Origin: a virus
Reading direction: 5' to 3' (one strand)
Virus record (IMG/VR): IMGVR_UViG_3300023174_000475
Span: 1-30,718 of that record
DNA length: 30,718 bases
This document shows, piece after piece, positions 1,041 to 18,786 of the stretch. The stretch's first letter is position 1, and each line of letters starts with the position of its first letter. A model generated the notes under the pieces. The model was not told where the DNA came from. It did no database searches and saw only the letters and a list, made by a program, of their open reading frames with translations. The position numbers and the translations under genes are program-made.

Positions 1041-1185
1041 CTACGAGCACAACCTTATTAGTTTTGTAAACCATCTGACCTTCTTCATCCTTGACTATCT
1101 CAACCACACCGGATTGAATCAAAGCATTGAAGAAGTTAGCAAGATCAACCTTAAGGATAGCTACTTCTCTATCTAAATCACTCAT
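1018..1185 (-). CDS. hypothetical protein (55 aa)
   Basis: A 55-aa protein begins at an ATG that overlaps the stop of the RecA-like ATPase gene (ATGA), so translation is likely coupled. The sequence (MSDLDREVAILKVDLANFF then VVEIVKDEEGQMVYKTNKV) looks like a short helix followed by a beta hairpin. No zinc ligands or known domain are visible. It might be a small partner of the ATPase, but this is only suggested by position. Confidence 0.6.
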   Translation of the reverse strand: MSDLDREVAILKVDLANFFNALIQSGVVEIVKDEEGQMVYKTNKVVLVDEQPEVQ

Positions 1186-2057
1186 TGTTCTATCTCATTT
1201 CCATACTCATCTACGATGTAGTCACCAGTATAACCTGCTCGTGCATCCCTTGCCAGCATTGCGCCAAAGGCGTTTCTATCTGATATCTGACAAGCACCAT
1301 AGTTCACATTCAGGGATGTAAAGTCAGAGGCATCTGCCGTGTGTGGCCCAAACCTATTCTTTACTGCTGCAATGTTTAACTCTGCGTTCAACGGATCATA
1401 ACCAAGGGTCAGTATCAGGGCCGGTAGTTGGCTCACCTTGCCGTGAATAGAACGACGGGCAGGTGGCTTAGTAGGACTGCCATACTCTGACTGTTCAGAG
1501 ACGTGGTGCAGGACTAATACACAGGCTTCTGTCTTACGTGCCATATCGTGCAGTTCCATCATAATCGCACGTAAGCCTGCCCATTCATTATCAGTCTCTG
1601 CTGCCACGTTCATCAAGTTATCTATGATGATTAACTCTGGAGCAATTCCGTATAGCTCCACATACGCTCTGATTTCTAACTCGATATCATCGAGTGACGG
1701 ACTAGAATCAAAGACCCACTTAATATGACCTAACTTACTAAGGTGGTGGTTGTAGTGATTATTGTCGGCAGATAAGTTCTGTTCAACGTTGACCTGATTG
1801 TGACCTGATAAGTGTGCTGCACTACGCATCATCACTGTAGTCGTATCAGTATCTGCTGAAAAGAATAACGCTGGCACACCAGCCTTAATTGCGTAGATAA
1901 GTGCAAACATAGACTTACCAGCGTTAGGTGCTGCAGCTACCATACAGACTTGTCCTCGCCGGAACTTGATCTGCTTGGCTGCTAAGCCAGTCCATACATC
2001 AGGTAAAGGCGTTGCCCTAGTGAGCACAGTTCCCCAGGCTCTATCTAGACTAAGCAA
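1182..2057 (-). CDS. RecA/DnaB-like P-loop ATPase
   Basis: This 291-aa protein has a Walker A motif at residues 42-49 (AAPNAGKS), a hydrophobic strand ending in Asp as Walker B at 142-146 (LIIID), and LVLHH at 181-185, as in RecA/DnaB-fold ATPases (AAA_25/RepA-helicase type). It lacks an N-terminal DnaB domain. Likely role: a ring-forming DNA helicase or recombinase-like ATPase in phage replication, working with the primase at the end of this operon. The start is TTG at 2057, preceded by a strong GGAGG six bases away and overlapping the WhiB stop by 8 nt. Helicase versus recombinase cannot be decided from sequence alone. Confidence 0.8.
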   Translation of the reverse strand: MLSLDRAWGTVLTRATPLPDVWTGLAAKQIKFRRGQVCMVAAAPNAGKSMFALIYAIKAGVPALFFSADTDTTTVMMRSAAHLSGHNQVNVEQNLSADNNHYNHHLSKLGHIKWVFDSSPSLDDIELEIRAYVELYGIAPELIIIDNLMNVAAETDNEWAGLRAIMMELHDMARKTEACVLVLHHVSEQSEYGSPTKPPARRSIHGKVSQLPALILTLGYDPLNAELNIAAVKNRFGPHTADASDFTSLNVNYGACQISDRNAFGAMLARDARAGYTGDYIVDEYGNEIEQ

Positions 2058-2316
2058 CGTCTTCCTCCCTTAGTTTAATATTACGTTGTGCTCTGATAGA
2101 AGAACGTTCTCTTGGGGCTAACCCACCCCATATCCCGTGAACTTCTTTTTTTATGCCCCACTCTGCGCACTCAATTTTATGTGGACATAATCCACAAATA
2201 GATTTTGCGATGTGTGTATCTTCTGTGTAAGCAGATTTGTCTGATCTTTCTGAAAACCAAAAGTCACCGCCTACTGTTGCACAGCTTGGGCTCTCATAGA
2301 ACCTCGGCTCGCGCAT
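2050..2316 (-). CDS. whiB: WhiB-family iron-sulfur transcription regulator
   Basis: The 88-aa protein has the four WhiB cysteines C12, C41, C44 and C50 (CxxCxxxxxC in ICGLCPHKIEC), followed by the turn HGIWGGLAPRER at residues 60-71. WhiB proteins bind a 4Fe-4S cluster and sit on the principal sigma factor to alter transcription; they are confined to Actinobacteria and their phages. The start at 2316 is preferred over a longer frame that would run 95 nt into the upstream gene with non-WhiB-like residues. Phage WhiB proteins are known to interfere with host WhiB function (mycobacteriophage TM4). It could do that here or regulate phage late genes. Confidence 0.88.
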   Translation of the reverse strand: MREPRFYESPSCATVGGDFWFSERSDKSAYTEDTHIAKSICGLCPHKIECAEWGIKKEVHGIWGGLAPRERSSIRAQRNIKLREEDVA

Positions 2317-2320
2317 CGAG

Positions 2321-2695
2321 TCATCGAATCCAGATTGTGTCGCACTTCTCTGACTTCGGTAACTCCTTCGGACCGGCACACATAAAGCCCTGCCAAGGTC
2401 CCTTCTCACCCACACCTGAACGGAAGTTCATCTGTCCGTGACGGCACATCTTCACTGATGGGTCTGATGATGCTGCTACTGGTGTTGCAGTGAACTGCGC
2501 TTGGATGTTCTGTACTGCTGCTGCAGTTGACCCACCTGATAGTTCTACTGCTGTTGACTTAATCATTGTTGCAACCATTGCTAGGTCTGTAAGACCTGTC
2601 TCTAGTTCCTTAACATCTGCAGCATATAAATTGATAAGAGTTCCATCGCTTAACTTGTAATTGATTTGGAACTTTGTGTTCTCGTTTGCAGCCAT
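2321..2695 (-). CDS. hypothetical protein with C-terminal Cys/His zinc-binding tail
   Basis: A 124-aa protein begins immediately after the exonuclease stop. Residues 1-60 look like a compact alpha/beta segment; residues 60-80 are an Ala/Thr/Ser-rich linker; the end holds MCRHGQMNFRSG, KGPWQGFMC and KCDTIWIR, with C84, H86, C105 and C117 as likely zinc ligands. Similar CxHG...KGPW...C...C tails occur at the ends of actinophage DNA-metabolism proteins. Its place between a Cas4-like exonuclease and a RecA-like ATPase suggests a role in recombination or single-strand DNA handling. That role is inference; the function is not recognised. Confidence 0.7.
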   Translation of the reverse strand: MAANENTKFQINYKLSDGTLINLYAADVKELETGLTDLAMVATMIKSTAVELSGGSTAAAVQNIQAQFTATPVAASSDPSVKMCRHGQMNFRSGVGEKGPWQGFMCAGPKELPKSEKCDTIWIR

Positions 2696-3655
2696 TTACT
2701 TTCCTCCACTGTGTCTGATGTTGATTCTTACAGATTCATTACCTACCAATTTAGGAACAAACCCCAGAAGTTTCTCTACCTCTTTTGCATCAACTGTCTC
2801 ACGACCTTTGATTGTTGTCCAACTGATTTCAACACCACTTTTAGTGATGCCTGTTGATCCTTCAAGTGAAGCCTTCAAAGAATCTTTCTCTTTCTCCAGC
2901 TCTTTTATCTTGCTATCTAACTGTATGTAATGCAGTGCGTGCTTGTCAACTTCTTCGTCCTCAATAACTACTTCACTCAGGACGATACTTTCTTTTTTTA
3001 AGCCAGTACAACCCATCTCACCGGATGCGTCATAGTACTGGCAGTAATCCTTACAGAAGGATTCATCCTTCTCCGGCTCTGGCAGTGTTGTAGATGCCTT
3101 GACTGCCGCTAGCCAAGTAAATGCTTCCAGTGCAACAGCCTCATCGTAAGGTTCTGTGTGTACCTTGACGTCCTTCTCGTTACCATCACGTGCTATTGCT
3201 ACAAGGTTGACTGTCTTTACATCGTAGCCTTTCTTAGATAGAAGAAAACCATAGAGCTGCACCTGCCAGCGCTGCTGCTTTGATGGAAAGTAACCAAGGT
3301 TCTTTACCTTAGATGTTTTCCAGTCAATGACTGCGCCAGTACTTGGTACATATAAGTCAACGTGTGCTTTCATACCACCAAAGGAAACCTCGGTTTCTAC
3401 CAAGTATTCTTTACCTGCAGGATCTAGTGCGCTAATAGCCTCTTCGATAGCTGTGTGTATAGCAGTACCCATAATGGCAGCCAACTTAGATTGGTTCTCA
3501 TTAGTATGTGGCTGTGCGTTTAGTCTGTACCAGACCTTACGACGACAACCACCTATCTCTGATGGACCAACCTCTGTCTGTGTGCTTCTATCACGAGTAG
3601 CATCTTTGGCGTGCAGTACGTGAAGCAGTAATTCCTTTGGGTCTTCTATCGCCAC
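2696..3655 (-). CDS. Cas4/RecB-type PD-(D/E)XK exonuclease with predicted 4Fe-4S cluster
   Basis: The 319-aa protein has the motif series of Cas4/AddB-like nucleases: C37 in GGCRRKVWYRL, H67 in MGTAIHTAIEE, D100 in the HVDLY strand, D111-x-K113 in VIDWKTSK, Q131 in RWQVQLYGF, and a trio C201, C205, C216 (FCKDYC...GC). With C37 these would hold an iron-sulfur cluster. The C-terminal 80 residues form a predicted coiled coil (residues about 240-265) plus a small domain. Likely role: resection of DNA ends for phage recombination or degradation of host DNA. The start is GTG at 3655, forced because an in-frame TGA lies two codons upstream. It overlaps the small membrane-protein gene by 10 nt. Confidence 0.85.
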   Translation of the reverse strand: MAIEDPKELLLHVLHAKDATRDRSTQTEVGPSEIGGCRRKVWYRLNAQPHTNENQSKLAAIMGTAIHTAIEEAISALDPAGKEYLVETEVSFGGMKAHVDLYVPSTGAVIDWKTSKVKNLGYFPSKQQRWQVQLYGFLLSKKGYDVKTVNLVAIARDGNEKDVKVHTEPYDEAVALEAFTWLAAVKASTTLPEPEKDESFCKDYCQYYDASGEMGCTGLKKESIVLSEVVIEDEEVDKHALHYIQLDSKIKELEKEKDSLKASLEGSTGITKSGVEISWTTIKGRETVDAKEVEKLLGFVPKLVGNESVRINIRHSGGK

Positions 3656-3753
3656 TTGCGGTCATCTCTCCATTGCAGCCAGGTGTCAAAACCATATGCT
3701 GAAACAAAACCTAGTAGCAAACTAAATGCTCCTACTAAAATCAACTCTGTCAT
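3646..3753 (-). CDS. tiny single-pass membrane protein (35 aa)
   Basis: A 35-aa protein starts at an ATG overlapping the stop of the proteasome-like gene (ATGA) and ends 10 nt inside the exonuclease gene. Residues 4-22 are a hydrophobic segment (LILVGAFSLLLGFVSAYGF) followed by a charged tail (WRDDRKWR), so an inner-membrane protein with its C-terminus in the cytoplasm is likely. No family is recognised. The tight coupling on both sides argues that it is translated, and its proximity to the protease gene makes a functional link possible but unproven. Confidence 0.6.
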   Translation of the reverse strand: MTELILVGAFSLLLGFVSAYGFDTWLQWRDDRKWR

Positions 3754-4325
3754 TTGTATACCCTTTCCTGTGCTATTACTTGAATTGGTGGGGATGTATT
3801 GATATCTAAGACGGATGCTATCTGCACTGCCTTCTCAGCTACCACACTTGCTGTTAGTAATTTATTATAGAACTTAGGTTCTAAAGAATACAAGTACCCA
3901 AGGGCATAATTCCCACCGGAGCCTGCCGCGAATAGCCCACGCTCACTGCCATTGAAGGATAGATCCCCGCCGATAGAAAAGATATGAGCATCGAAAGATA
4001 TTAAGAAGCTGAAGTTCATCTCCTTGTTATCAATCTCGTAGTTGCCCTCCTTGAAGGATGCCGAGATACTCGGTATCACCTTGCTACCCATAAAGGTAGT
4101 TGGGTCTTCGCCACGATACAAGGGTGGCTTCCACGCATAGGCGAGAATATCACCTGGTCGTGAGTCACCAGTAAGGCCAAGTAGGTACTTACCCACCGAA
4201 ATTATCTTGGGAGTTTCTACCGAGATAATGCGTTGGTCACCATCTGTAATCTGTGAGTCTGCCGCAAAGACAACGAAGTCTTTGCCCTGAATCCCTATTA
4301 ACGTGGTTATGGCTTCATCTCCCAT
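3750..4325 (-). CDS. proteasome beta-subunit/HslV-like Ntn hydrolase
   Basis: This 191-aa protein reads like a 20S proteasome beta or HslV-type subunit. After a six-residue leader comes TTLIGIQGKDFVVFAADSQ. Taking T7 as the catalytic Thr1, D23 falls at position 17 and K40 at 34, one off the canonical Lys33. AAGSGGNYALGYLY (132-145) matches the conserved GSG helix start (family Ser129), and DINTSPP (174-180) sits where the Asp166/Ser169 pair lies. Length is close to that of mature beta subunits. Such proteins form barrel-shaped proteases cut open by leader removal. No unfoldase ATPase gene lies nearby. The start at 4325 overlaps the endonuclease gene by 19 nt. Actual substrates, and whether it assembles alone or with host subunits, are unknown. 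Confidence 0.8.
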   Translation of the reverse strand: MGDEAITTLIGIQGKDFVVFAADSQITDGDQRIISVETPKIISVGKYLLGLTGDSRPGDILAYAWKPPLYRGEDPTTFMGSKVIPSISASFKEGNYEIDNKEMNFSFLISFDAHIFSIGGDLSFNGSERGLFAAGSGGNYALGYLYSLEPKFYNKLLTASVVAEKAVQIASVLDINTSPPIQVIAQERVYK

Positions 4326-4777
4326 TTAGATAGATACTCAACTGATTTTAATAATATACCTATATTTTCCTTGGCATATCCAATAACAAAATTGCAGTTG
4401 TGACATAATAATCCTCTAACTTGACCAGTATTATGATTATGATCTACGTAAAAATACGCTCCGTTACCACCTGGTTTATCTACTTCACATATAGCACATT
4501 TATGTTCTTGCCCTTGTATTTTTTCATTATATTCTTCCAAGGTAATACCATAATTATATTTAAGGTGTTGACGTTTCTTAAGATCAGGATTTTGTTTATA
4601 CCTTTTGCGTTGATATTCATTATGTTTCTGCCGAACTTCAACGCGTTGATAATATTCTCTATTAAGTTTAATACCGCAGCTTTTACATTCTTGGCGTAAT
4701 CCATCTTTATATCTTTTATTTACATAAAAGTTTTCAACGAGAAGTTCTTGGGTACACACCTTGCACGTCTTAGTCAT
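4307..4777 (-). CDS. endonuclease VII-like HNH nuclease
   Basis: With the ATG at 4777 the protein has 156 residues: an N-terminal zinc finger (C5, C8, C31, C34), a Lys/Arg/Tyr-rich helix (40-75), then YGITLEEYNEK and the recombination-endonuclease-VII core CAIC (C94, C97), VDHNHNTG (D112, H113, N116) and RGLLCHNCN (C125, C128). This family cuts branched DNA in T4, but most phage copies behave as free-standing homing nucleases. Codon use is clearly AT-richer than in neighbouring genes, which suggests recent arrival. The frame stays open upstream to 5044 but that part is low in protein character; in-frame ATGs at 4789 and 4786 are alternative starts. It would be the first gene of the leftward operon. 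Confidence 0.85.
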   Translation of the reverse strand: MTKTCKVCTQELLVENFYVNKRYKDGLRQECKSCGIKLNREYYQRVEVRQKHNEYQRKRYKQNPDLKKRQHLKYNYGITLEEYNEKIQGQEHKCAICEVDKPGGNGAYFYVDHNHNTGQVRGLLCHNCNFVIGYAKENIGILLKSVEYLSKWEMKP

Positions 4778-4829
4778 ACTCGTCATCATATCACGGCGTG
4801 TCGTAAGACACATTACTAAGGTGGGTATG

Positions 4830-4958: not shown

Positions 4959-5174
4959 ATGAGAGGGTTACCACAGGTCACAGGAACCGATTTGCGGGGC
5001 TTAGGACCCATCCACGTATGTCCTTGTGGGTCACAGGTATTCAACGTCGCAGCGTCCTTTGAGGACTACGAGCTAGTTTGGTATGCACTAGATGCTACCT
5101 GTTTCTCTTGTGGAAATTTAGTAGTGGTTCCTTGTCCCCCAGATCGTGATGAAGCACAGCCTTTCGGAGATTGA
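4959..5174 (+). CDS. small zinc-ribbon protein, possibly shortened by a frameshift
   Basis: The frame encodes GPIHVCPCGSQVF, then FEDYELVWYALDATCFSCGN and VVVPCPPD: two Cys pairs (CPC and CFSC) in a zinc-ribbon arrangement. It is one of only two plus-strand genes. The ATG at 4959 has no clear ribosome-binding site; a TTG at 4992 has AGGA six bases upstream and leaves the ribbon intact (60 aa), so the start is uncertain. A protein-like frame without a start codon lies just upstream in another phase and would join this one if a tandem CACAGGT/CACAGGA duplication (4972-4985) were reduced to one copy. The 3' end overlaps the HNH gene by 26 nt. Function unknown; a DNA-binding role is plausible. 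Confidence 0.6.
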   Translation: MRGLPQVTGTDLRGLGPIHVCPCGSQVFNVAASFEDYELVWYALDATCFSCGNLVVVPCPPDRDEAQPFGD

Positions 5175-5502
5175 CGAGCAGGCCAGGACTGGTATCTGTT
5201 CAGTCTGTGGCCCTACTAAAATCAAGATGAGGAACTCTAAACGGGTTAGCCTCAAGGGTAAATACAAGTGCAAGGCAGTCTATCAAAAAGCCTACGACAA
5301 ACTTATCTCTCCATACGCAGTCCACAAGAAGGACTACTGCCAGCAATGCGGGTTCAACCCAGTACATACCAGCCAGCTTGATGTGGACCACATAGACGGT
5401 GACAGGTGGAACAATGACCTATCCAACCTACAGACCCTCTGTGCTAACTGCCACCGCTTGAAGACCCATCTAAACGGTGACGCAAACTCTGGCATATTTT
5501 AG
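5149..5502 (+). CDS. HNH endonuclease
   Basis: The 117-aa protein has three Cys pairs, CSVC (17-20), CQQC (64-67) and CANC (98-101), and the HNH core VDHIDGDRWNNDLSNLQTLC with D80, H81 and N94, plus H102. This is a standard betabetaalpha-metal HNH nuclease. In phages these nick or cut double-stranded DNA, either as homing enzymes or as helpers in packaging. This one is on the opposite strand to almost everything else and far from terminase, which favours a mobile or accessory role. An in-frame GTG at 5146 is an alternative start. It converges on the late operon, with the terminator between them. Confidence 0.85.
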   Translation: MKHSLSEIDEQARTGICSVCGPTKIKMRNSKRVSLKGKYKCKAVYQKAYDKLISPYAVHKKDYCQQCGFNPVHTSQLDVDHIDGDRWNNDLSNLQTLCANCHRLKTHLNGDANSGIF

Positions 5503-5506
5503 GCAC

Positions 5507-5537
5507 AAAAAAAGGGGGCGGCCCCGAAGGACCGCCC
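5507..5537 (-). terminator. rho-independent terminator of the late operon
   Basis: Read on the minus strand, GGGCGGTCC pairs with GGGCCGCCC (nine pairs, one G-T) around a TTCG tetraloop, then CC and seven Ts follow. It lies 25 bases after the holin gene and ends the rightmost, structural/lysis block. On the plus strand the same hairpin, without a T-run, lies just after the HNH gene and may slow transcription from that side too. Confidence 0.9.
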
Positions 5538-11556: not shown

Positions 11557-12453
11557 TTACTTTGTGTAGTGGATACGGATTGGGTATTTGTCTTGGAGCT
11601 TGAGTGCTTCTTCATTAAGTCTCTGTTGATACAGAGCAAAGATGTAACGAGATGATGCAACGCCTGCTGTGCTTGGAATCTTGGTATCGTTTAAGTCTGC
11701 CTCTGCAGAACTTAGGTTGATACGACCAGCATCCACATAGGAGAGCAACTTGTAGCAAGCGCCAAGGATTACTACTTCAACTGCTGAAGCAGGTAGCCCT
11801 GTTACGTCAGCAAAGTCATCTGTATTGTTATCCAACGTGTTAGGAGTAGTTGTGTAGTACACCTGTACTGTTCTACCAGGCTGGATATTCTCGTAGATGT
11901 TTACTGTGTTTGTTGTATTAAATGCTGAAATGTTTGCCATTGGGTCTGCACGCCAACGGTTGATAGGTAGCCATTCAAGGCTTGATCCTGTTGTTTGCCA
12001 AGACATATAGAGGATTGACTCTAGGTCATCTGGTAGTGCATAGGTTGTCTGGCTTGCGTTAAAAGTAAAGGTAGTTGAGGCTACAGCCCAGAGTTTAGGA
12101 AAGAGGCTATTGATTACATCATTGATAGCCTTCTTAATCATTACTCGTGGAAAGGTTGGAGTAAGAGTTATCTGTGCATACTGTGCGTGTGGTGAGGCTG
12201 GTGTGTTCTGATAGCCACGACCAAAGCCTGGAGCTGCATTAAGTGTGCTGCTTGCTTGAGCAAAGTTGTCAATCCAGATAAGTTCATCATCAATTTCAAT
12301 GATACCTTTAGCCAGGTTAGAACTTGAACCAATTACCATAGCGGTAGCAGTAGATGATATAGCAGCATTGAGATAAGTGATTCTATCTTGGCGCAGGGTG
12401 TAGCCTGCTAAAGATGAGCGAACCTCATCTACCATATCGCTAAATGTAGGCAT
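11557..12453 (-). CDS. adaptor/head-tail connector-like protein
   Basis: This 298-aa protein opens MPTFSDMVDEVRSSL, has a central beta region (GIIEIDDELIWIDNF, FGRGYQNTPASPH), RVMIKKAINDVINSLFPKLW, a YALPDDLESIL stretch and a helical C-terminus (AVEVVILGACYKLLSYVDAG). The helix-beta-helix layout and its place among tail genes resemble adaptor proteins such as T7 gp11. Function is inferred. It is joined to the glycosyltransferase stop as TAATG. Confidence 0.55.
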   Translation of the reverse strand: MPTFSDMVDEVRSSLAGYTLRQDRITYLNAAISSTATAMVIGSSSNLAKGIIEIDDELIWIDNFAQASSTLNAAPGFGRGYQNTPASPHAQYAQITLTPTFPRVMIKKAINDVINSLFPKLWAVASTTFTFNASQTTYALPDDLESILYMSWQTTGSSLEWLPINRWRADPMANISAFNTTNTVNIYENIQPGRTVQVYYTTTPNTLDNNTDDFADVTGLPASAVEVVILGACYKLLSYVDAGRINLSSAEADLNDTKIPSTAGVASSRYIFALYQQRLNEEALKLQDKYPIRIHYTK

Positions 12454-13514
12454 TATTTCCTTTCATACCAGCCATCTCCCCATAGAGTTAGCAGTCTTGC
12501 AAAGTATTGTTCGTATTGTGGTGCAATAGCATCTAGTGAATACAACGCTACGGCTCTCTTATGTATTGCAACTGGGTCCAGATTCTTTACCCACTCTGTT
12601 GCTACCGCAAACTCCATTGCATTTCTGCACCGGTATCCGGTAACACCTTGTGGGTTAGTCTCTGTAAAGGCTCCCCAGTCTGTAGTAATCGTTGGAGTAC
12701 CACAGGCTTGTGCTTCGATAACTACGTTACCAAAAGGTTCTATGTATAGCGTTGGTGCAAATAGGGCAATAGCACCACCCATTAACTTTGCACGTTCTTC
12801 TGGACCTACTGGTCCAACCCATTCACCATATTCAATCTTTGGGTTATTGCCAGGTCCTGCCATAATTAGCTTTAGCCCTAGTTCTTTACAAACGTGTTGT
12901 GCAATGATGATGCCCTTGCGGTCTACCATACGACCTACGTAGAGGTAGTAATCTTCTTTCTTCTCCTGTAATGGGAACATCTCTGGTTCTAAGTAACCAG
13001 GTATTACCGCATCGTAGAAGTTGCCATCTACTAGAGTCGGATCTTTATACATCGCATAGATGCTGTGCATCCAGGCGTAAGACTCAAAGACTCTGTACTT
13101 ACTAAATACTCCGCCGTAGCCCACACCAAACTCTACGCTCATATACTCTGGGTAAGCATCTGCGATAGGCTTTTGTGAAGCACCACCGATAAGACAGATA
13201 AAGTCTTTATGCTGTAGGCGCTTACCTAGTTCTTTGATTGCAGTATTGTTAAATATCTGCCAGTGCGGTAAAGTATTATCAAATGCAGCTTCGGTGTAGT
13301 GCTTACCGTCTAGCGCTTCGTCTTGCTGCTCTTTAGTAATACAGGTGATTAACTCATCAACCGGTGCTTCATTATCTTCACCGGCATAAAGGTAGACCGT
13401 ATGGCCTAGACTTTTCATCATTATGCAAAAGCGTCTGACCTTTTCAGTATAGGCGCAGTTGACATAATCTTTAGTTGTCTGCGTGTGAGGCAGGCTTATT
13501 ACGTGGAATCTCAT
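12453..13514 (-). CDS. glycosyltransferase family 4-like (GT-B fold)
   Basis: The 353-aa protein has the GT4 landmarks: YVGRMVDRKG (192-201), MAGPGN (218-223) and the E-x7-E motif EPFGNVVIE (E259 and E267) followed by AQACGTPTITTDWGAF, where the nucleotide-sugar donor binds. The N-terminal half is the acceptor-binding Rossmann domain. It has no signal peptide, so it acts in the cytoplasm. It is surrounded by virion genes and directly follows the collagen-like fibre gene, so decoration of a virion protein is more likely than modification of DNA or the cell surface. Donor sugar is unknown. Confidence 0.85.
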   Translation of the reverse strand: MRFHVISLPHTQTTKDYVNCAYTEKVRRFCIMMKSLGHTVYLYAGEDNEAPVDELITCITKEQQDEALDGKHYTEAAFDNTLPHWQIFNNTAIKELGKRLQHKDFICLIGGASQKPIADAYPEYMSVEFGVGYGGVFSKYRVFESYAWMHSIYAMYKDPTLVDGNFYDAVIPGYLEPEMFPLQEKKEDYYLYVGRMVDRKGIIIAQHVCKELGLKLIMAGPGNNPKIEYGEWVGPVGPEERAKLMGGAIALFAPTLYIEPFGNVVIEAQACGTPTITTDWGAFTETNPQGVTGYRCRNAMEFAVATEWVKNLDPVAIHKRAVALYSLDAIAPQYEQYFARLLTLWGDGWYERK

Positions 13515-13523
13515 ACCACAAGT

Positions 13524-14876
13524 CTACGCTAAATCTCCAAAAACAATCCAAGAGTTGGCGGCGAGTTTCTTACAAGTTGCACCAGAGTTGACTACTCTGA
13601 GCTTCGGGGTAGCACTGGTGGCTCCCGTTGAAATAACAGTCGTAGTTCCAGGGGTTACCGCACCAATGGTTGGCTGGCCTGCGCCTGTAATCCAGAAGAC
13701 GTTAATCTCTGTGCCTACCGCAAAGTTAAAGGTAGCATCTGTAGGAATATTAAACTGCTGAGTAGCAGCATTATTCATTGAGAATAACTGGCCTTCATCA
13801 CCGGATGCAAAGGTATATGCAGCAGTCTTGGCTGTATAAGTTGATGAAATCTTAGGGCTAGATATTACTGGTGTTGCGATAGTTGGGCTAGTACCAAAGA
13901 CCAATGATCCCGTACCAGTCTCATCAGTTACTGCAGATATAAGGTTTGCAGATGATGGAGTAGCAAGGAATGTAGCAACGCCAGTACCTAGACCAGAGAT
14001 ACCGGTAGATACAGGAAGTCCAGTTGCGTTAGTTAATACACCAGACGCTGGAGTTCCTAAAGCGGGTGTTACCAAAGCAGGGCTAGTTGCAAAGACCAAA
14101 GCACCAGTGCCTGTCTCATCGGAGATAACACCTGCTAATTGAGCAGAAGTAGTAGCAGCAAATTGTGATAATGGACTAGCAGTTAGACCAACACCTGTAG
14201 TTGGGTGGACGTGATCATCCTTAGATGCTGTAGTTCCTACACCTGCTGCTGCTGTACCTAACGCTTGCGGAGTAGCTGCTGAAAGGCTTGGTTGTGGTCC
14301 TGTTGCACCAGTAGGACCAGTTGCACCAGTAGCACCTGCTGGACCTGTGGCACCAGTTGGGCCAGCAACGGTACTTGCAGCACCAGTTGCACCTGTTGGT
14401 CCTGTAGGACCAGTTGCACCAGTTGGTCCAACTAGGTTGACACCAGTAGGCCATACACCTGCTGCCTTTGGTCCAAAAATTTTATTAGTTGCTGTGTTGA
14501 TATAGAAATCGCCATTGACGCCTTGTGTTGTTGGGTCTACTGCACCATTAAGAACGGTATAGCCAGCAGTACCAGTAACACCAGTTGCGCCAGTGACACC
14601 AGTAGGACCTGTAGGTCCTGTGGCCCCTGCAGGGCCTGTAGGACCCGTAGGACCAGCAACTGTGCTAGCAGTACCAGTTGCACCAGTAGGTCCTGTAGGG
14701 CCTGTAGCACCTGTTACACCAGTAGCACCAGATGCACCAGTTGGACCAGTAGCGCCGGTAGCACCATTAGGACCAGTTGGGCCTGTGGCACCTACTGCAC
14801 CTTGTGGACCTTGCTGTGCTGAGAATACTAAGGATTGGTTAGGAGTAATGGATTCGATAACTACAAAAGTTGTCAC
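13524..14876 (-). CDS. collagen-like tail fibre protein
   Basis: A 450-aa protein with Gly-X-Y triplets, mostly GATGPTG and GPTG, in four runs (residues about 23-69, 75-105, 150-166 and 172-193), separated by an STVAG break and by a small domain (106-149). Residues 201-228 ([20 protein letters not shown]) form the common fibre element before a His-containing turn. The C-terminal module (about 355-450) ends GDLA. The triplets should trimerise into a fibre. Thr fills most Y positions and Pro is limited, so stability without hydroxyproline may depend on Thr contacts or sugars. The start is GTG, overlapping the previous stop (GTGA). Confidence 0.85.
14298..14810 (-). repeat. collagen-triplet-coding repeat DNA
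   Basis: The stretch holds degenerate 9- to 18-base repeats coding Gly-Ala-Thr-Gly-Pro-Thr units, interrupted at 14432-14561 by a non-collagen domain. Repeats of this kind expand and contract by recombination, so the copy number may differ between related phages. A Val/Ala/Pro-rich plus-strand frame here is only the mirror of the repeat. Confidence 0.8.
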
Positions 14877-17604: not shown

Positions 17605-18786
17605 TTATCCGTTTGTTGCTGCAGACTCAATGCGATAGAGCGCTGCTTCACGAAGGCGTGCAAAGCCTCCGAAGTAGTACCAACCGATTGTGCGGAAACG
17701 ACGGAGTGCATCAATCTCTGGACCGATAACGGTTGAGATGTCTGCAGCCTGTGCTTCAGCCAATGCTTCACGACCTGCGACGATTGCGCGGTAGTTGTTG
17801 GTGAATGTAACAGTACCTGTATCAGCAACTGATGTGATGTTAGATGCTGTAAGTGAATAGGTAAATGTTGTTGTAGATGGTGTTGAGGCGATTGTGTATG
17901 TGCCGTTAACACCTGTGTTAGTTGTAGCAGCAACTGTTACAACCTGACCTGTTCCGAGACCGTGAGCAACTGCTGTAGTAATTGTTACTACGTTAGATGT
18001 CAAAGCAACGTTGGTGATAGTTGTGCTTGTAGTGATACCTGTTGAGAGCTTTAGGCCGTTAAGGACACGTGGTGTCTCAACGATGAAAGCGCCTTCAATA
18101 ACTCCTACTGCACCAGCAACGAACGGTGTACGCTCTACGTACTTTGTTAGCTCCTGGAATCCGCCTGTACCAGTCTCAGCGCGAAGGTCTGCTGACTGAC
18201 GTGGGTGGAGGTATGCTGCGTAGAGTTCACCCATACGAGGCAGCGCCTTGTTTGTGCGTAGTGAAACAACAGCGTTGCGGATATCCGCTACTGTCATTGT
18301 ATCTACTGGGAGAACTGCAGATGATGCAGTTGGAGTAGTACCTGATGGACCGTTTGAGTAGATTACGTTAGTTCCTGCTGAGAGGACCTGACCTACTACG
18401 TTGTCAATCGAGTCTGCTGCGTTGTACGCGATGATGTCAGCAAGAGCTGAATCAACGTCGTTGAAAGAAGTTAGGTTTAGCTTCTTTGTTGTTGTAACTG
18501 CTGAACCGTATTCGTTCAGTGTTACTGTAACCTGTGAAGGGTTACCTAGTGCGATGCTTGAAACATCTGAAGATTCTGTCAATGTAGATGTAGCTTGTGC
18601 TAAATCTGAGTAGATTGAGAATACAACTGATGATCCTGGCATTGCCTGTTGTACTGGCTTAACATCTGCAAGTGAGCGCATAACAGGAATGGAGCGAAGC
18701 GCCATTCTTACATACTGGTCGTATGCTGCTTGTACTAGATTGCTGATGCTAGACGTAGTAGTGGGGGTACCTGTTGGAATTGCCAT
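17605..18786 (-). CDS. major capsid protein, HK97-fold (N4 gp56-like)
   Basis: The 393-aa protein follows the scaffold gene. Features include an N-terminal arm, ALRSIPVMRSLADV, VTVTLNEYGSAVTTTKKLNL, DSIDNVVGQVL, GELYAAYLHPRQSADLRAET and the end GWYYFGGFARLREAALYRIE, as in N4-gp56-type HK97-fold capsid proteins. Residues about 253-331 look like an inserted beta domain (VVTITTAVAHGLGTGQVVTV, NGTYTIAS), of a kind known from other phage structural proteins. Highly Thr/Ala/Val-rich, no protease domain. AAAGG stands upstream of the ATG. Confidence 0.85.
   Translation of the reverse strand: MAIPTGTPTTTSSISNLVQAAYDQYVRMALRSIPVMRSLADVKPVQQAMPGSSVVFSIYSDLAQATSTLTESSDVSSIALGNPSQVTVTLNEYGSAVTTTKKLNLTSFNDVDSALADIIAYNAADSIDNVVGQVLSAGTNVIYSNGPSGTTPTASSAVLPVDTMTVADIRNAVVSLRTNKALPRMGELYAAYLHPRQSADLRAETGTGGFQELTKYVERTPFVAGAVGVIEGAFIVETPRVLNGLKLSTGITTSTTITNVALTSNVVTITTAVAHGLGTGQVVTVAATTNTGVNGTYTIASTPSTTTFTYSLTASNITSVADTGTVTFTNNYRAIVAGREALAEAQAADISTVIGPEIDALRRFRTIGWYYFGGFARLREAALYRIESAATNG

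Follow-up and report, generated by a model that had tools for sequence, protein, structure and literature searches.

The window, i.e., the whole stretch of DNA analyzed in this work, comprises 30,718 nt of the IMG/VR record IMGVR_UViG_3300023174_000475 (positions 1 to 30,718). The open reading frame at 3750-4325, singled out by a sequence-only reading as a phage-encoded proteasome-beta/HslV-like protease, was confirmed and assigned to the minus strand. It encodes 191 aa, and the mature threonine (Thr) protease, counted from the first of two adjacent threonines (Thr1), has 185 aa. The gene of the Cas4-like exonuclease follows it in the operon, and the HNH endonuclease gene of the opposite strand is syntenic in many relatives. 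The coordinates of the features are collected in Table 1.

Table 1. Genes and predicted sequence elements in and around the protease operon of the window.
Feature	Position	Strand	Remarks
DnaB-like replicative helicase	1182..2057	-	PHROG_243, E 2.5e-71; same operon as the protease
WhiB-like regulator	2050..2415	-	Pfam WhiB, E 3e-12; actinophage marker, same operon as the protease
Cas4-like PD-(D/E)XK exonuclease	2696..3655	-	Pfam Cas_Cas4, E 1e-8; PHROG_1674 exonuclease, E 2.8e-32
Small ORF, 35 aa	3646..3753	-	Hydrophobic N-terminal half; overlaps the protease stop
Thr-protease CDS	3750..4310	-	From the ATA (4310-4308) directly before Thr1, the putative start, to TGA (3752-3750)
Endonuclease VII/HNH ORF, 156 aa	4307..4777	-	Inserted; Pfam Endonuclease_7, E 2.9e-21
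-10 element (predicted)	4785..4790	-	TATGAT, 7 nt 5' of the ancestral start codon
Operator-like element	4794..4811	-	GTGTC-TTAC-GACAC-GCCG; inverted repeat 4811-4798; ACGACACGCCG at 4804-4794; conserved
HNH endonuclease	5146..5502	+	Pfam HNH, E 4.5e-8; between the lysis cassette and the protease promoter
Terminator-like hairpin	5516..5537	-	GGGCGGTCCTTCGGGGCCGCCC followed by a T-run; between the lysis cassette and the protease promoter

All residues listed in the sequence-only reading were found in place (TT at 7-8, D23, K40, GSGG at 135-138 and DINTS at 174-178 of the ORF). Its claim of an intact Ntn-hydrolase active site also held: after profile alignment with HslV, Thr1, Asp17, Lys33 and Gly47 were all present, and T1, T2, D17, S18, K34 (equivalent to Lys33), G47 and D168 were invariant across 23 diverse phage homologs, down to 25% identity. 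The Pfam profile PF00227, proposed earlier as a check, recognized the protein (E 4.6e-8, 33.4 bits with the gathering cut-off at 22.4), as did PHROG_1040 "peptidase HslV family" over residues 7-187 (E 6.4e-23), the latter match meaning that phage proteins of such a kind have already been catalogued. Modelled by AF2 on an alignment of the 23 phage sequences, the mature chain (pLDDT 89.9, pTM 0.87) displayed the four-layer Ntn sandwich and clearly matched the proteasome/HslV/BPH fold in the Foldseek and VIA searches. The outcomes named beforehand as refuting the reading, a missing profile match or a model lacking that sandwich, did not occur. The closest PDB structure was that of BPH, the beta-proteobacterial proteasome homologue (5ovs/5ovt; Foldseek E 4.6e-13, TM 0.76; VIA Z 19.7 over 173 residues with 25% identity), followed by 20S beta, HslV and Anbu with Z values of 18-19 in VIA. 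Since these Z values are close, the fold is certain but the sub-family is not; the identity to the solved relatives is 12-25%.

The second profile check, that against HslV, yielded only weak matches, 33.1 vs 157.75 and 32.7 vs 137 bits for the two equivalog models, which is more than 100 bits short. No match to TIGR03690 (actinobacterial 20S beta) was obtained for the window protein, and neither a second proteasome match nor an alpha subunit was detected in the 30.7-kb record. The window protease is neither HslV nor a 20S beta subunit. In the IQ-TREE tree, which contains long branches, the freshwater phage clade was well supported (96/99) and placed outside both HslV and a starred clade formed by AAH-like proteins from plasmids of Rhizobium, Streptomyces and Paraburkholderia, the "AAH" labels being assigned by taxonomy and position. 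The phylogeny called for previously separated the window clade from HslV, but the placement of BPH, itself a long-branch row, is unreliable.

Known proteasome homologs allow the window protein to be described more closely. Fuchs, Alva and Lupas described 22 new proteasome homologs, including the phage PPH and AAH (the alpha-proteobacterial and actinobacterial homolog), and found no actinobacteria-specific phage with AAH (Fuchs et al. 2021; PMC8665760). Apart from that study, only annotation papers were found in the literature on phage HslV-like proteins. The PHROG_1040 proteins resemble the window protease in the full-length match, phage origin and intact Thr1 site, but this family pools distant proteins and the freshwater clade forms a separate branch (96/99) with about 25-33% identity to the rest. 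BPH (5ovs/5ovt/5ovu) is similar as the best fold match and in its Met|Thr1 start without a propeptide, and a partner unfoldase is absent in both cases (for BPH, PMC5777263); it differs in being cellular and in having a long acidic pore loop. AAH is likewise a compact group I homolog found in phages too, whereas the AAH-like plasmid proteins begin with Thr-Cys or Thr-Val and form a clade of their own. PPH, also a phage-borne group I homolog, has ~140 residues and no helix H2, whereas the 185-residue window protease has both helices of the pair in the AF2 model (49-58 and 69-87). HslV/ClpQ shares the TT start, GSGG, an overlapping fold and the weak profile matches, but the score of 33 bits stands against 158 and 137, and the phage has no HslU. 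Altogether, the window protein is a group I-like proteasome homolog in actinophages and not a PPH; as a kind, the gene is not new, being preceded by PHROG_1040 and the phage proteasome-like proteins of Fuchs et al. (2021). Judging from the sequence, it would be a protease with an N-terminal threonine, from the HslV/BPH-like branch, and probably catalytically active. Its self-compartmentalisation is plausible by analogy with BPH, a tetradecameric double ring (14-mer) with an epoxomicin-reactive Thr1, in which removal of Met and the start at Thr1 were measured (PMC5777263).

Homologs of the window protease were present in 540 viral stretches, and the search of 84,980 cellular genomes gave one weak locus, which indicates that the close family is phage-restricted and argues against a cellular origin of this clade. 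The gene is under purifying selection, with dN/dS of 0.03-0.25 (median 0.12, 1693 pairs).

The actinobacterial context assumed previously was corroborated. The window carries WhiB and L5-gp49-like genes, and its DnaB-like, Cas4-like and capsid genes are related to actinophage genes, the DnaB-like protein having relatives in 1451 records, nearly all of them actinophages. The major capsid protein is nearest to those of OX376640/1 and of Streptomyces phages. OX376640.1 and OX376641.1 (L126 and L368; 39.1 and 38.9 kb), filed unannotated as "Caudovirales sp. ct2KA10", seem to correspond to two phages of Ca. Planktophila in culture, LanE43AprE7 (E7) and AprF5 (F5) of PMC10202952. The identity between E7 and the window is 52-53% for the portal, 66% for the lysin and 44% for the helicase. 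Such likeness to a Planktophila phage, along with the actinophage-type genes, makes a Nanopelagicales host likely for the window phage. Within the structural region, the major capsid protein (17605-18786) aligns to its relatives in two pieces, and the part at about residues 247-327, which matches PHROG_9998, resembles an insertion of an Ig-like or surface domain. The same region contains a glycosyltransferase group 1 gene (12453-13514), and 13524-14876 encodes a long protein of collagen-like Gly-X-Y repeats (GATGPTGP), probably a fibre of the tail or head.

It had been proposed that the protease could compete with or modify the host 20S particle, an idea that extends to co-assembly with it or an effect on the Pup pathway and to which the actinobacterial host and the proteasome fold lend themselves. 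The protein does not match the 20S beta model, however, no alpha subunit accompanies it, its identity to solved relatives is low, and homologs are encoded by phages of Vibrio, Geobacillus and Aeromonas, genera that are not known to have a 20S particle. We consider such interference very improbable. The absence of an adjoining unfoldase gene was correctly noticed: no AAA+ unfoldase was detected in 18 phage records of 31-43 kb, with only a DnaB-like match in E7, and the AAA_2 profile for HslU found nothing in the 18 records while all control genomes were positive, a result that concerns the phage genomes and not the host HslU.

The six-residue leader MGDEAI, which the upstream ATG at 4325 would add if used, had been taken as a part of the protease. 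Its codons proved to lie in the tail of an endonuclease ORF inserted here, and it is not a propeptide; propeptides are absent from group I homologs other than HslV (PMC8665760). Almost all relatives start with Met|Thr-Thr, the codon before Thr-Thr being ATG, GTG or TTG in 148 of the 158 with a readable junction. In a pairwise comparison with L001, a relative without the insert, the homology to the window stops at 4773 and picks up again at 4310. The insert sits exactly between the former start codon and Thr1: the ATG of the endonuclease (4777-4775) is the ancestral start codon of the protease, and its stop TAA (4309-4307) overlaps the ATA now preceding Thr1. GGGAG lies eight bases 5' of this ATA, the alternative being the in-frame ATG leading to MGDEAI. 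The ten relatives with ATC or ATA before Thr1 (L004, L014, L016, L017, L021, L024, L025, L030, L057 and L064) carry an endonuclease or a 50-aa ORF at the insertion position, and in nine of them no in-frame ATG, GTG or TTG occurs downstream of the preceding stop. The dN/dS of 0.06 between the insert-bearing L017 and L024 shows that the protease gene remains under selection despite the insert. The simplest reading is that the insert-bearing protease genes are initiated at AUA/AUC, this codon being preceded by a Shine-Dalgarno-like stretch. That frameshifting fuses the protease to the inserted ORF is disfavoured because of that stretch and because Thr1 must be N-terminal. A group I intron, or some other RNA known to Rfam, at the gene's 5' end was also considered and rejected: there was no Rfam match, the insert is an ORF without space for an intron core, and the 3' junctions have no terminal G.

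Slot loci were fetched with the neighbouring Cas4-like exonuclease as bait, from two clades. Among the 80 loci near the window's exonuclease, the Thr protease was encoded in 51, an unrelated HExxH protein of ~110 aa (the Zn-slot protein) in 27, and two were too short; in the distant clade the Thr protease was found in 77 of 80 loci, the other three being too short. Thus, the 155 informative loci (five too short) comprised 128 Thr and 27 Zn loci, with no locus carrying both and none carrying neither; counted by distinct exonuclease sequences (135), there were 109 Thr and 26 Zn loci. The other occupant was absent from all 115 Thr-seeded and 35 Zn-seeded loci. Searches of whole records detected PHROG_1040 in 0/15 Zn records (9.9-44 kb) and the Zn protein in 0/23 Thr records (32-43 kb), with positive controls of 9/9 and 13/13. 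At least eight changes of the Thr/Zn label were required on the exonuclease tree (six forced by well supported branches) and at least eight on the exonuclease+DnaB tree (five so forced), and the DnaB tree required at least 10 (seven forced). Between L256 (Zn) and L019 (Thr) the identity is 90% upstream, as far as some 22 bp from the start, and 95% downstream of the ORF, with no homology across the ORF itself, and in the Zn/Thr pairs L184/L097, L255/L097 and L199/L194 the homology runs through the start codon. The exchange of the two genes at one slot is exclusive and repeated, and the replacement begins at the start codon or shortly before it. This slot is the main new result of the analysis. 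The 35-aa ORF is kept 3' of either protease gene in most loci of the window's clade.

Both occupants share promoter features. A TAnnnT motif ending 6-9 nt before the start was present in 66 of the 68 distinct Thr loci, with 7.8 expected by shuffling, and the two exceptions both carry inserts; it was found in 26 of the 35 Zn loci, the other nine having short ORFs in between. TAnnnT so near the start, together with the terminator-like hairpin, points to a leaderless transcript that is predicted to begin with the protease gene, ahead of the exonuclease, WhiB and DnaB genes. Just 5' of the -10 element lies the inverted repeat GTGTC-TTAC-GACAC followed by GCCG, with GACACGC kept in nearly all relatives; it is possibly bound by a regulator of phage or host origin, for instance WhiB. 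Behind the shared promoter, a 50-aa ORF (MEELIEKLREASYY...) was observed in Thr as well as Zn loci (L004, in the region -169 to 0 before the protease gene, and L186, L188 and L212), for which the Pfam and PHROG searches gave no match, and a short ORF of ~18 aa (MTITYLDWLSINNIDWDD-like) lies between the promoter and the Zn-protein gene in L197, L198, L209, L215 and L231.

The Zn-slot protein (MPRIYSVKIFGQ...MHEVTHAVIHES...VEEVCD) has an invariant HExxH (H53, E54, H57) and, 17-18 residues on, the near-invariant E74/E75. It weakly matched DUF6782 "putative metallopeptidase" (E 4e-6, 26.8 bits vs the cut-off of 27), M78/IrrE (E 6e-4, 16.7-20 bits vs the gathering cut-off of 22), a PHROG peptidase (2e-5), a PHROG metallo-protease (8.5e-5) and a SprT-like profile; its nearest PHROG, 1233, has no assigned function. 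The AF2 model was poor (pLDDT 61.6), and neither Foldseek with this model nor a PDB profile search returned a match. The HExxH and the downstream Glu are shared with the IrrE/ImmA-like (M78) minimal metallopeptidases, from which the protein differs in having ~110 aa, no DNA-binding domain and scores below the curated cut-offs. The motif and the profiles suggest a zinc-binding metallopeptidase. In L218 (1874-2138) the Zn-slot protein is in two segments, perhaps due to a frameshift or sequencing error.

The slot might be nothing more than a hot spot of recombination or insertion that follows a strong leaderless promoter and is filled by two unrelated accessory genes with no common role. Endonuclease ORFs and the 50-aa ORF also enter this position and the flanks of Thr and Zn loci are near identical; moreover, mosaic phages swap cassettes by recombination, so the exclusivity could partly reflect allelism at such a spot. 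However, the inserts only add and never replace, no locus out of 155 was empty or doubly occupied, and both occupants look like peptidases. On balance, we regard the hot spot as unlikely to be the whole explanation. The exclusive filling of the slot by a Thr or a HExxH enzyme argues that the needed output is most likely proteolysis, and their exchange that cleavage itself is what selection acts on.

The sister phages of the E7 type are arranged differently. The early slot of E7, between o63 and the Cas4-like gene, contains neither the Thr nor the Zn protein, and the Thr protease gene lies directly 3' of the portal gene, as in 33/33 E7-type IMG/VR loci (fetched by the protease itself). A protease was found in every phage examined, the E7-type loci having been fetched by the protease itself. 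The place behind the portal gene is the usual one for a prohead protease, and among the tested genes of the window's structural region no head protease was recognized, so that a head-maturation protease cutting the capsid, scaffold or portal in prohead assembly has to be considered. Against this, the window-family gene opens a separate unit after the lysis cassette and terminator, ahead of the replication genes, and can be swapped for the HExxH protein; other actinophages have the gene in non-structural regions, and head proteases known to us are serine enzymes. Altogether, a role in head maturation seems unlikely, more so than the mere hot spot, though the position in E7 speaks for it. Vibrio phage phi 3 had suggested that protease and exonuclease are linked in phages at large; this is not general, as the protease has other neighbours in the Arthrobacter, Microbacterium and DSL-LC01 phages. 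In DSL-LC01, a 129-kb actinophage, the Thr protease has a basic C-terminal tail and its gene adjoins a WhiB gene (L083, 8013-8966); WhiB is also encoded near the Thr protease in L131 and L132 among L131-L133.

The reading that we prefer, with a probability of roughly 0.6, is that the slot serves an early phage protease function, specific and unfoldase-independent, which either of two unrelated enzymes can fill. The Thr protease gene would be the first of the replication ("early") operon in this family of freshwater actinophages. Translation would begin at the codon before Thr1, and the host methionine aminopeptidase would take off Met to expose Thr1 as the nucleophile. The subunits would probably stack as a BPH-like double ring without a dedicated unfoldase, and this ring might act on one protein or a small set of them, specific or loosely folded, so that a particular host or phage protein would be proteolyzed, presumably early in infection. 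The Thr and HExxH occupants may act on a common substrate. BPH showed no activity with casein or standard peptides (PMC5777263), which cautions that an intact site is no guarantee of general proteolysis; by analogy, this inertness is in keeping with a narrow range of substrates.

A special case of the preferred reading is a counter-defence or anti-toxin protease whose substrate would be a host defence protein or regulator. ImmA/IrrE-type metalloproteases cut repressors, and the alternative occupant resembles the IrrE/M78 type; the protease is also encoded by the first gene of the early operon and the gene relocates between related phages. Near-universal presence in the family is nevertheless unusual for a gene of that sort, and PADLOC gave no match for the Thr protease. 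This special case is doubtful, although somewhat less so than the other alternatives. A strong form of the preferred reading has about even odds of being right, namely that the family needs one proteolytic step, that the Thr protease and the minimal HExxH metallopeptidase are true functional substitutes exchanged gene for gene at least eight times behind one leaderless promoter and neither co-occurring nor both missing, and that the AUA/AUC start in the insert-bearing phages keeps Thr1 N-terminal.

For phage proteasome homologs in general, gene context and co-occurrence gave no clue to function in the survey of Fuchs et al. (2021; PMC8665760), and the Thr/HExxH exchange offers one. The exchange points to peptide-bond cleavage in trans as the output, and not to scaffolding or modulation of the 20S particle, and to a substrate within reach of a small metallopeptidase. 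Phages of the window type are widespread in freshwater metagenomes, and since E7 and F5, phages of Ca. Planktophila in culture, contain a relative of the protease gene, its role is open to experiment.
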